NCBI RefSeq assembly: GCF_000495255.1
Contig: NZ_AVAO01000003.1
Location: 124,001 to 188,000 of the forward strand
From: Candidatus Phytoplasma tritici
GTDB taxonomy: Bacteria > Bacillota_I > Bacilli_A > Acholeplasmatales > Acholeplasmataceae
Length of the DNA: 64,000 nucleotides
Reading direction: 5' to 3'
Below the pieces are notes generated by a model, which was not told the DNA's origin, searched no databases, and saw only the letters and a program-made list of their open reading frames with translations. Both the position numbers and the translations under genes were made by a program. Positions 45,367 through 49,325 of this stretch are shown here, piece by piece (position 1 is the stretch's first letter; the number at the start of each line of letters is the position of its first letter).

Positions 45367-45490
45367 CAATTACTAAAATAGTTTTAAATTTAAAAATTTT
45401 ATATAGATTATCAAAAAGTATAGATCAACAATGAAAAAAACACAAAAAAATAGCAAAATAAAATATGAAAATAAAATCAAAGGTATATTT

Positions 45491-46174
45491 ATGTTAAATA
45501 ATCAAAAAAATGTTTTAAGAAAAATCATTGCCATTTCTTTCTTATTATTTTTGGCTTTTGTTTTGGAACTTCTTTCTCGTTATACTATTAATGGAGGAAT
45601 CCCTTGCAATTATGCTTTTTTTCGCATTGAATTAATTTTTATCATTTTAATAGGTTATCTTTTTGGACCTAAATACGGATTTTGGGCTAGTTTATTTTAT
45701 CTTTTAATTCATTATGTTTTAGAATTTTCTTTTATGGAAGTGTTATTACACCATACACACGAAAATCATAATCACATTTATAACCATAAAAATGAACATG
45801 CAAGCAAAACCCTTATTTTCCTTTACAGATTTTTTCTTCCCTATATTGTCTGCTCTTTTTCGGGCTTATTTTATCGAAAAAACTTAAATCATCTCACGAA
45901 AAAAACACCTATTATAATAACTTTAGTGTTAATTAGTGTAGTTCAAATTATTTCAAGCATTTTATTTATTAATTTATTACAAGAAAACTTTGCCAAAAAA
46001 ACTTTTTTAAAGTGGTTCATCCAAAGCCCTTCTTATTCCTGGTCGCTTAATATTATTTATAGTTTTTCATCAGTTATTGTAAATAATACAATTATGGGAG
46101 TTTTATTTTATTTAATTAATTTACGTCTTAAAGATAATATGGAATTTTTATATGGTTTTTCCAAGGAAAATTAA
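45491..46174 (+). CDS. ECF-type S component-like membrane protein with His-rich loop
   Basis: About 227 residues with six hydrophobic segments. GYLFGPKYGFWASLFYLLI near residues 55-75 fits the S-component pattern of energy-coupling-factor vitamin importers (G-P-x-x-G). The loop between TM3 and TM4 is strikingly His-rich (HHTHENHNHIYNHKNEH, near 97-113). Start at 45491 is preferred over an in-frame ATG at 45431 because AAAGG lies about 7 nt upstream. It directly follows lplA. A lipoate (LipT-like) or metal substrate are both possible; assignment is inference. Shared T/A1/A2 module is not in the window. Confidence 0.6.
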   Translation: MLNNQKNVLRKIIAISFLLFLAFVLELLSRYTINGGIPCNYAFFRIELIFIILIGYLFGPKYGFWASLFYLLIHYVLEFSFMEVLLHHTHENHNHIYNHKNEHASKTLIFLYRFFLPYIVCSFSGLFYRKNLNHLTKKTPIIITLVLISVVQIISSILFINLLQENFAKKTFLKWFIQSPSYSWSLNIIYSFSSVIVNNTIMGVLFYLINLRLKDNMEFLYGFSKEN

Positions 46175-46300: not shown

Positions 46301-47554
46301 GTGTTTTTAAAATTTTTTAACAAAAACAAAATTATTATATTCTTTATTTTGCCATTATTTTTAATTTTATTATTTTTAATTAGTCTAGAATTATCATATT
46401 TTTGGATAGAAAAAAATCAATTAAAAAACACTTCTTTAATAAATATGTACGAACTGTTTGAAAAATTAAAAAAAAACGAAATTAAAAAAATTCATTATAC
46501 TTATAAAAGCCAATACAGCATTTGGACCAAAGAACATTATTTAATCCAAGCAGAAAGTTTTAATAATCAAAAATATTATTGTAAAATGACAACCTCCAAT
46601 TATGATTATTTAGTACATGCTTTTTATTTATATAAAGATGTTTTGGTGGAAATCAAAGAAAATATCCAATTTAATTTTTTAGAATTATATTTCAAATTTA
46701 TAAGTTATTTTGTTTCTTTTATTTTTGGATGTTATATTTTAATTCACCTTAAACAAATGTTATCAAAAAAAATAAATAGATTTAATGCAAAAAATGATTT
46801 TTCCGAAGACAAAATAACTTTTGCAGATATAGCAGGTCTCGAAGAAGAAAAAAAAGAAATCCAAGAATTAGTTGATTTCTTAAAACATCCTCAAAAATAT
46901 CATAAAATGGGCTTTGCAATTCCTAAAGGAGTATTATTAGAAGGTCCTCCGGGAACAGGTAAAACCTTACTTGCAAAATCATTAGCTAATGAGGCAAAAG
47001 TCCCTTTTTATGCTGTATCTGGTTCTGAATTTGTCGAAATTTATGTAGGAGTTGGAGCTTCTAGAATAAGAGAATTGTTTCAAAAAGCCAAAACAACTAC
47101 TCCTTGTATTATTTTTATTGATGAAATAGATACTTTAGGAGCTAAAAGAAAAAACAATCCTATCATAGAATCACGCGAACACGACCAGTCTTTAAACCAA
47201 CTTTTATTAGAGATGGATGGGTTTTTTAAACTTTCACAAATAATCATTATTGCTGCTACTAATAGAATAGATATGTTAGATCCTGCTTTGATTCGTCCAG
47301 GTAGGTTTGACCGTAAAATAAAAATTAATTTACCCAATCTAAAAGCTAGAGAAGCTATTCTAAAAGTTCATGCTAAAAATAAAAATATTTCTTTGGATGT
47401 TGATTTTTACAAATTAGCTTTAATTACTGAAGGTGCATCAGGTGCCCAACTTGCAGCCATACTCAATGAGGCTTTAATTTTAGCTATCAGAAATAACAAA
47501 GATCAAATTGATAAACAATTTTTAGAACAAGCAATTAAACGCATATTAAATTAA
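46301..47554 (+). CDS. FtsH-like AAA ATPase lacking the M41 peptidase domain
   Basis: 417 residues. Two N-terminal membrane helices (about 12-32 and 128-147) bracket an extracytoplasmic domain, then an FtsH-type AAA module: Walker A EGPPGTGKTLLAKSLA near 216, Walker B CIIFIDEIDTLGAKR near 268, SRH TNRIDMLDPALIRPGRFDRK near 325-344, and the lid GASGAQLAAILNEALILA near 382. The protein ends right after the lid, where FtsH continues into the zinc peptidase HEAGH, so protease activity is missing. GTG start with GGAG 10 nt upstream. A natural stand-alone unfoldase or a truncated FtsH paralogue are both possible. Confidence 0.9.
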   Translation: MFLKFFNKNKIIIFFILPLFLILLFLISLELSYFWIEKNQLKNTSLINMYELFEKLKKNEIKKIHYTYKSQYSIWTKEHYLIQAESFNNQKYYCKMTTSNYDYLVHAFYLYKDVLVEIKENIQFNFLELYFKFISYFVSFIFGCYILIHLKQMLSKKINRFNAKNDFSEDKITFADIAGLEEEKKEIQELVDFLKHPQKYHKMGFAIPKGVLLEGPPGTGKTLLAKSLANEAKVPFYAVSGSEFVEIYVGVGASRIRELFQKAKTTTPCIIFIDEIDTLGAKRKNNPIIESREHDQSLNQLLLEMDGFFKLSQIIIIAATNRIDMLDPALIRPGRFDRKIKINLPNLKAREAILKVHAKNKNISLDVDFYKLALITEGASGAQLAAILNEALILAIRNNKDQIDKQFLEQAIKRILN

Positions 47555-47625: not shown

Positions 47626-48945
47626 TTATTTTGTAGCATCAGTAGCAGCAAAAATAAAAACTTTGGTTGGTAAAATTGCACTAGAAACAAAAATTTGATT
47701 TTTAGTATCTTTAATTTCTTCTACACCATCTCCAATATTGTGTTTTTCAAGTAAAAATGGCAAAAATCGATATTCAACAAACCTAATCTTATTTTGTTTA
47801 ATTACTGTGGCAAGGTTTTTATTTAGTTCTTGCAATTTTTCTTGGGAAAAAATACTCAAAGGCAAAGTAGATACTATACCTTTTATTTGGTCTATCAAAA
47901 TTTTTTGATTTTTTAACAATTTAATAAAATCACAAGCATCTCCTTCGATAACTGTTAAATTTGGAAATTTATTTCTCAAAACATTACATAATTCTTTATC
48001 ATATTCCAAAGCAATAACATTTTTGACTCCAAACTTTTGTACTAAATATTTAGTAACATTACCACTGCCTGCTCCTAGTTCCAAAATTTTTTCATCTTTT
48101 TTTGAATTTAAGTCTTGTTTTCCTTCAAGCACCAAATTACTTAATTGTTTAGCGATATCTTGTGATTCAGGAAAAAGAGAAGATCCCATTTGTTGAGGAT
48201 GAAACACCAATTCTTTGGCATGATTCCAATCACTTTTTTCCCTAGTAATAATACAAATCAAAAATGCTCCTAACACTAAAAGTACGCTTTTATAAAAAGG
48301 ATGAATTTTTATTTTTTGCACTACTATTAAACCCATTGACAAAAGAAAAAAAGAGACGAAAATTTTAAAATAAGCTAATATTAAATGGTTTTGGTAATAA
48401 GGATTAATAAAATGCGATTTCAAATCCATTTTAAAACCAAAAATAATAGCAGATAACAAAAAGTAGCAAAAAGGATGAACAAAAACTATCCACACTTTTT
48501 TCCAACCCAAAAAAGTAATTGATCGTTTCCAAACATAAAAACAATAAACCAAAGGAGCAAAGACATATTGCAAATAATAAGGAATGAGTTGTATTTGCCA
48601 ATTTGCAGAAATAAAATGCTGTCTGCGGTCTTCAATAAAATCACAAAAAACCAAACTTATAATTAAAATATTTACCAAAGCAACAAAACTTAATATTTGA
48701 TAAAATTTAGTATTTCTATATTTAGTTAAAGCAAGTATTGCAACTATCAAAATTAAAAAAATATTTTGTCTTGTGTAATGAAAAATATTTTTAAAATAAG
48801 TAAATAAATCTAGATGGGTTTGTAAACAACTATCAAAAATTCCCCAAATCAAAGTTATTGAAGAAAAAATAACTAATAATAACGAGCTTAAATTTTTTTT
48901 AAAAAACGAAGAATTAAAAATTTTGTAAAAAGATGTGATTTTCAT
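47626..48945 (-). CDS. Membrane domain (Pr6Pr-like) fused to a PmtA-like SAM methyltransferase
   Basis: 439 residues. Residues 1-235 contain six to seven membrane helices; YVFAPLVYCFYVWKRS and KVWIVFVHPFCYFLLSAI resemble the Pr6Pr family of integral membrane proteins. From about 288 a Rossmann methyltransferase begins: ILELGAGSGNVTKYLVQKFG (motif I), NVIALEYDKEL, VIEGDACDFI and IVSTLPLSIF. The order resembles phospholipid N-methyltransferases of the PmtA type, with some rRNA dimethylase resemblance. Phosphatidyl-group methylation at the membrane is a testable guess. ATG start; 19-bp direct repeats lie just upstream. Confidence 0.75.
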   Translation of the reverse strand: MKITSFYKIFNSSFFKKNLSSLLLVIFSSITLIWGIFDSCLQTHLDLFTYFKNIFHYTRQNIFLILIVAILALTKYRNTKFYQILSFVALVNILIISLVFCDFIEDRRQHFISANWQIQLIPYYLQYVFAPLVYCFYVWKRSITFLGWKKVWIVFVHPFCYFLLSAIIFGFKMDLKSHFINPYYQNHLILAYFKIFVSFFLLSMGLIVVQKIKIHPFYKSVLLVLGAFLICIITREKSDWNHAKELVFHPQQMGSSLFPESQDIAKQLSNLVLEGKQDLNSKKDEKILELGAGSGNVTKYLVQKFGVKNVIALEYDKELCNVLRNKFPNLTVIEGDACDFIKLLKNQKILIDQIKGIVSTLPLSIFSQEKLQELNKNLATVIKQNKIRFVEYRFLPFLLEKHNIGDGVEEIKDTKNQIFVSSAILPTKVFIFAATDATK

Positions 48946-49325
48946 TTTGATACCTCAAAAAAATGTTAAATTAATAAAAAAATGTTAAATTAATAAAAAA
49001 ATGTTAAATTAAAATTATTTTATTAATTTAAAACAACAATTAAATTATATCATTTTTTTAAAAAAACCTTTTTATAATTATCAACAATTAAAAAATAACG
49101 AAAAAATACAAAAAAAATAACGAAAAGCCATAAAAAAATGTTAAAATTAAGTTTGATCAGTTTTTTAATTTTATAAATATGTTAGGCATCAATTATATAT
49201 TTATTACAAATCAAAATTAAATCAAAACATATTTTAATAAAACTAATTATTATTTGCAGCAGCATCAAAAACCAAATTAATATCAAATATCACCCCAACC
49301 CCCCCCAATTAAAGGAGTTTTTATA
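48946..49325. other. Divergent intergenic region with direct repeats and a C8 tract
   Basis: Separates the minus-strand fusion gene and plus-strand alaS. It holds three 19-bp direct repeats (48957-49016), AT-rich sequence, and C4-AA-C8 (49293-49306) before the alaS SD AAAGGAG. Confidence 0.6.
48957..49016. repeat. Three 19-bp direct repeats
   Basis: Unit ATGTTAAATTAATAAAAAA starts at 48963, 48982 and 49001 (the last unit is cut short). A related sequence recurs at 49134. Located 10-70 nt upstream of the start codon at 48945 (minus). Confidence 0.9.

Follow-up and report, generated by a model that had tools for sequence, protein, structure and literature searches.

Phytoplasmas cannot be cultured, and the gene described here encodes a membrane protein fused to a methyltransferase. 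The described lipid metabolism of phytoplasmas ends at PG and PE (PMC3322544). The initial annotation of this gene had proposed a PmtA-like activity unreported for the lineage, in agreement with our literature search, where no mention of a phospholipid N-methyltransferase in phytoplasmas was found. By the literature searched, a membrane-anchored PmtA-like methyltransferase is apparently undescribed in these bacteria. The gene lies in a stretch of 64,000 nucleotides from Candidatus Phytoplasma tritici, which is called the window below, and its features are collected in Table 1.

Table 1. Features of the fusion gene, in positions of the window
Feature	Positions	Strand	Basis
Whole fusion gene, 439 aa	47626..48945	-	ORF prediction, search for relatives
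Shine-Dalgarno-like GAGGT, 6 nt 5' of ATG	48952..48956	-	By eye
Pr6Pr-derived 6-TM region, residues 1-211	48313..48945	-	AlphaFold2 (AF2) models; hhalign to Pr6Pr set
Tyr127 codon, at the invariant Pr6Pr His position	48565..48567	-	Alignment
TM7, residues 216-233, extra helix of the fusion form only	48247..48300	-	AF2, charge analysis
Interfacial helix and pre-Rossmann motif W240-x-H-A...M-G-S-S-L-F-P259	48169..48228	-	Profile alignment
PmtA/OlsG-type SAM methyltransferase domain, residues 262-434	47644..48162	-	AF2, Foldseek, hhalign, profile searches
SAM-binding motif I ELGAGSG, residues 289-295 (ExGxGxG)	48061..48081	-	Alignment; E and three G in 16/16
Glu314 = AtPmtA Glu84 (SAM ribose), 16/16	48004..48006	-	Alignment, PDB profile
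Asp336-Ala337 = AtPmtA Asp106-Ala107 (adenine)	47935..47940	-	Alignment, PDB profile
S-T-L-P 359-362, counterpart of AtPmtA S-A128-V-P	47860..47871	-	Alignment, PDB profile
Tyr392, counterpart of catalytic AtPmtA Tyr161, 16/16	47770..47772	-	Motif order

Integrity, neighbours and distribution of the fusion gene

The initial placement of the open reading frame and its description as a fusion of a membrane protein and a methyltransferase were both borne out. The reading frame starts with ATG and contains no internal stops under codes 4 or 11, and the AlphaFold2 model of the full protein (pLDDT 83, pTM 0.81) has two parts, with seven membrane helices within residues 1-235 followed by a Rossmann methyltransferase. 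Of the six to seven helices first suggested for the N-terminus, the model supports seven and not six, the seventh being specific to the fusion form. A perfect tandem repeat of 19 bp x 2.9 (48957-49012) lies directly 5' of the Shine-Dalgarno-like sequence and is absent from OY-M and from two further genomes (G048 and G066). The window lacks about 50 bp near this repeat, and the N-terminus is consequently shorter than in the relatives.

The neighbours of the gene are an FtsH-like gene, to which it is convergent, and alaS, from which it diverges. No conserved operon was found, and the fusion gene stands alone in most genomes that carry it. An exception is a copy in P. pruni (G068:C1, L054:4329-6773) that lies upstream of, and codirectional with, pgsA-like and recA-like genes, the former being a phospholipid synthesis gene. 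The FtsH-like protein of the window (46301-47554, forward strand) stops short of the peptidase, its sequence covering the AAA and lid domains (profile positions 4-403 of 598); since the orthologue in G064 has 592 amino acids, the protease part seems to have been lost in this clade. Adjoining it is a gene for an ECF transporter S-component-like protein, weakly of the folate type (45431-46174, forward strand), and the pair is kept together in the nearer relatives.

Our search covered 88 genomes of Acholeplasmataceae and found full-length relatives in phytoplasmas only, with identities to the window protein of 93, 88, 88, 59, 58 and 39-35%. When counted by its methyltransferase part, the fusion is present in 15 of the 29 phytoplasma species genomes, with three intact copies in P. 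pruni ChTDIII (G068), of which two lie in tandem. Among the GTDB species genomes scanned, the full form occurs in the OY-M, P. pruni, P. ziziphi, P. pini, P. vitis, Texas Phoenix palm, Cynodon and Melaleuca phytoplasmas and in no others. The absence of the fusion from 14 of the 29 genomes, some of which are only 75-90% complete, indicates that it is not essential to phytoplasmas as a group. A decayed copy with internal stops was seen in P. pruni CX (L055:3509-4547, G062:C8). The dN/dS ratio of near pairs was 0.11-0.74, mostly around 0.3, for both halves of the protein, and with orthologues in many assemblies and ratios mostly well below 1, the fusion is real and under constraint. An origin in sequencing or assembly, the weakness that the initial annotation had foreseen, is ruled out by the many independent assemblies that carry the fusion, the fused form having been found in 14 species genomes besides that of the window.

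The membrane domain and its Pr6Pr relatives

The AF2 models place the helices at residues 19-41 (TM1), 57-72 (TM2), 80-103 (TM3), 116-140 (TM4), 148-168 (TM5) and 188-211 (TM6). Profile comparison by hhalign of the N-termini of the fusions with 29 Pr6Pr-type proteins gave a probability of 98 and an E value of 1.8e-13, which upholds the Pr6Pr resemblance first noted by inspection, although the window protein itself gave no match to the Pr6Pr model NF038065 (cut-off 30 bits) among the families listed. Relatives within Acholeplasmataceae (L019, L024 and L029) score 45-62 bits on this model, against the same cut-off of 30. The profile match, together with the nesting of the fusions among phytoplasma Pr6Pr-like paralogues in the tree, supports common descent of the six-TM region with Pr6Pr. 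The order of the six helices is the same in Pr6Pr and in the fusions, but the fusions add TM7 and the methyltransferase and have lost a His.

This His belongs to a set of residues (T, SN, T, H...P and YPY) that are invariant or nearly so in Pr6Pr-type relatives. At the Tyr127 position it is found in 29/29 Pr6Pr proteins, in 28/29 TM-only proteins and in 0/16 fusions, where the residue is Tyr in 14 and Phe in 2. Other polar residues of Pr6Pr are likewise rare or missing in the fusions (Thr92 in 0/16, Tyr168, which is the second Tyr of YPY, in 0/16 and Asn48 in 3/16). P131, Y161 and F179 are largely kept, and P131 is described as structural. The polar site of Pr6Pr has been dismantled in the fusions, and the domain has the look of a former active site retained as a scaffold. 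TM-only Pr6Pr-like paralogues in which the His is kept also occur in phytoplasmas, in several clades, and this search found two of them in the window's genome (L049:4115-4879 and L050:4462-5433, G000:C3).

No mention of Pr6Pr was found in the literature searched. The Pfam match of the TM part to Sbt_1 was below cut-off, no trustworthy Pfam match was obtained for the Pr6Pr relatives, and neither Foldseek (none under 0.001) nor the profile search gave a solved structure for the TM domain. Pr6Pr resembles the six-TM Thr/His lipid hydrolases AIG1 and ADTRP in having six TMs, about 230 amino acids and an early Thr with a later His. The catalytic pair of ADTRP is T47 with H131 in one report (PMC8123165) or with His149 in another (PMC8394805), as the sources differ. 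If the analogy holds, the counterpart of the catalytic His would be Tyr or Phe in all fusions. As no sequence or Pfam link was detected, the likeness of Pr6Pr to AIG1/TMEM164/ADTRP is to be read as an analogy.

The methyltransferase domain

The assignment of the C-terminal half as PmtA-like was supported by several comparisons. Foldseek gave AtPmtA (9ko3) as the best PDB fold for the AlphaFold2 model, with an E value of 2.6e-8 and a TMt of 0.77-0.80, compared with 3.4e-5 and 0.50 for KsgA, and 9ko3 also topped the list of the PDB profile search (1e-9). In hhalign, the fusion methyltransferases matched a set of 37 PmtA-like proteins, mostly alphaproteobacterial, with an E value of 1.3e-25 over 180 columns that run from the pre-Rossmann motif to the final strand, while the match to true KsgA proteins gave 2.1e-8 over 86 columns of the Rossmann core. 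The possibility raised at the outset, that this half matches only KsgA/Erm, is therefore not upheld. When 7 of the 37 reference proteins were scanned, six scored best on the PmtA model (94-117 bits) and the remaining one, from Daejeonella, scored best on OlsG and reached 52 bits on the PmtA model. The NCBIfam scores of the domain itself were 60 bits for OlsG, the best of them, 45 for PmtA, 43.5 for Erm and 41.8 for KsgA, all far below the curated cut-offs (250 bits for PmtA, NF045881, and 350 bits for OlsG, NF041658). Because it reaches 45 of the 250 bits and departs from the soluble architecture, we class the domain as PmtA-like and not as PmtA.

The likeness to AtPmtA (PDB 9KO3/9KO5) lies in the fold, in the ExGxGxG motif, in the preceding interfacial segment and in a domain size of about 190 amino acids. 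The stretch from W240 to P259 is the counterpart of the PmtA motif 'W..P..GA..P(S/T)', and a C-terminal strand with a conserved Pro is shared with the PmtA-like relatives. However, AtPmtA is a soluble cytosolic protein of 197 amino acids with one amphipathic helix, whereas the fusion domain, which is about 18% identical, is carried on seven TM helices and is predicted to lie outside the cell.

The motifs listed in the initial annotation (GAGSG, LEYD, EGDA and LPLS) are genuine and correspond to residues of PmtA, both in the alignment and in the PDB profile search. Tyr392 lies beyond the printed PDB alignment, and its equivalence to Tyr161, which sits in the substrate groove of AtPmtA, comes from the order of the motifs. 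In AtPmtA, mutants of E84 and D106 lose activity and mutants of A107 and Y161 largely lose it (PMC12139422). The Ala337 position is Ala in 15 of the 16 fusions, while that of Asp336 is Asp in 9 and Asn in 7, and given the requirement for D106 in AtPmtA, these seven sequences would count against a PmtA-like reading. Thr36 of AtPmtA is replaced by Glu260 in the window protein, and T36A is tolerated in AtPmtA. Position 390, which corresponds to Ile159 of AtPmtA, is V, M, L, I or K in the fusions and never the Phe that makes BdPmtA stop at MMPE, which would leave room for methylation as far as PC.

In the tree, the fusions form one clade (support 98/88) nested in the phytoplasma radiation of TM-only Pr6Pr-like paralogues, and one fusion event followed by losses would be the simplest reading. 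Within Acholeplasmataceae the search detected no PmtA-like domain apart from those in the fusions, and the other matches span the Rossmann core only. The nearest relatives of the methyltransferase domain that were found, in a scan limited by the patterns used, are alphaproteobacterial, and the domain is likely to have been acquired horizontally.

Orientation, substrate and proposed activity

In each of the 16 fusions, TM7 is hydrophobic and uncharged. The mean net charge per residue, taken segment by segment over these proteins, is 0.243 at the N-terminus, followed by 0.053, 0.241, 0.024, 0.245, 0.017, 0.283 and, after TM7, 0.017, and taken individually, 15 of the 16 proteins follow the expected alternation. 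The TM-only relatives have the same alternation and a K-rich tail after TM6, which indicates that both of their termini are inside; with the added TM7, the same positive-inside alternation predicts that the methyltransferase is outside. Phytoplasmas are wall-less and intracellular, so that outside means the host cytosol, where SAM is available. On the charge pattern, we consider it fairly probable that the methyltransferase faces the host cytosol, and an enzyme so placed would have to draw on host SAM. At about 17-20 residues TM7 is short; it could be a re-entrant helix, in which case the enzyme would stay in the cytosol. MetK was found neither in the window's genome nor in its near relatives, and Kube et al. 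noted that not all phytoplasma genomes have it. It is absent from 7 of the 15 fusion-carrying genomes and from 3 of the 14 without the fusion, counts too few to sustain a link between the two, which was dropped. Other carriers of the fusion encode MetK, so its loss does not explain the fusion. The initial annotation had noted neither the predicted outside orientation nor the missing Pr6Pr His and MetK.

Genes for psd and CDP-alcohol phosphatidyltransferases are present in 29/29 phytoplasma genomes, in agreement with what has been published on PE and PG modules (PMC3322544), and neither OlsB (PF13444), for the making of the ornithine lipid on which OlsG acts, nor MprF (PF09924) had a match in the window's genome. 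PE is the only lipid with an amine headgroup for which a synthesis route was detected and would be the likeliest substrate; host lipids are possible. The homology of the domains, the kept catalytic residues, the conservation, the one origin and the seven helices, all shown by computation, together suggest that the protein is probably a membrane-anchored aminolipid N-methyltransferase with a PmtA-like mechanism. The Pr6Pr-derived six-helix domain, having lost its own polar site, would act as an anchor or scaffold, from which TM7 would lead through the interfacial helix (237-248) to a methyltransferase resting on the membrane surface. SAM would donate methyl groups to a lipid headgroup amine, most likely that of PE, and the products would be mono- or dimethyl-PE and possibly PC; we infer the number of methylations, as we do the PE substrate and the outside orientation. 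More tentatively, the protein may sit at the surface as a lipid N-methyltransferase and, with SAM from the host cytosol, methylate PE of the outer leaflet, or of host membranes in contact with it, toward PC. A horizontally acquired PmtA-like domain would then have been joined to a retired Pr6Pr enzyme, with the added helix flipping the topology.

The enzyme could also work on the cytosolic face, with TM7 as a re-entrant or surface helix, imported or endogenous SAM and inner-leaflet PE as substrate, like an ordinary PmtA. We regard this as rather doubtful: all characterised Pmts are cytosolic (PMC12139422), several fusion-carrying phytoplasmas encode MetK and TM7 is short, but the positive-inside pattern of 15/16 proteins and the uncharged, hydrophobic TM7 of 16/16 speak for the other side, and TM7 would be superfluous for a cytosolic enzyme, since the 6-TM relatives already end in a K-rich cytosolic tail. 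It is unlikely that the methyltransferase acts on another amine or on an oxygen, be it of a host lipid, a surface protein or a small molecule. Such a substrate would suit the high sequence divergence, the top NCBIfam score for OlsG and not PmtA, and the change of the substrate-groove Ala128 to Thr360 in most fusions; however, OlsB was not found in the window's genome, PE synthesis is universal (29/29) and the catalytic Tyr is kept together with the membrane-binding preamble.

Patchy distribution and the decayed copy in one P. pruni assembly (G062:C8) are what would be expected of a pseudogene, an inactive relic or an artefactual fusion, but with the gene intact in 15 species genomes, dN/dS mostly well below 1 and the catalytic residues invariant, this is very improbable. 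Even less probable is a membrane-tethered RNA dimethylase of the KsgA/Erm type, to which the Pfam RrnaAD match of 38.9 bits (cut-off 24) might point. That match covers residues 278-340 only, and what is shared with KsgA/Erm is the Rossmann core; the fusion has neither GQNFL nor N(L/I)PY, with MGSSLFPES and STLPLS standing where the two motifs are expected, and it lacks the C-terminal helical domain, its chain ending after the Rossmann sheet. With a separate true KsgA in the window's genome (190.8 bits) and Foldseek favouring PmtA, we ruled out a KsgA/Erm rRNA dimethylase.

A conserved PmtA-like enzyme would add parasite-made methylated PE or PC to the lipids of phytoplasmas, and PC matters for plant interaction in Agrobacterium and Bradyrhizobium (PMC12139422). 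If it faces outward, a bacterial enzyme at the cell surface would be drawing on the SAM of its host, which would be a rare case and, if confirmed, a new route for parasite surface remodelling. Should the tentative reading of a surface lipid N-methyltransferase be true, the membrane of the parasite would be made to resemble that of its host.
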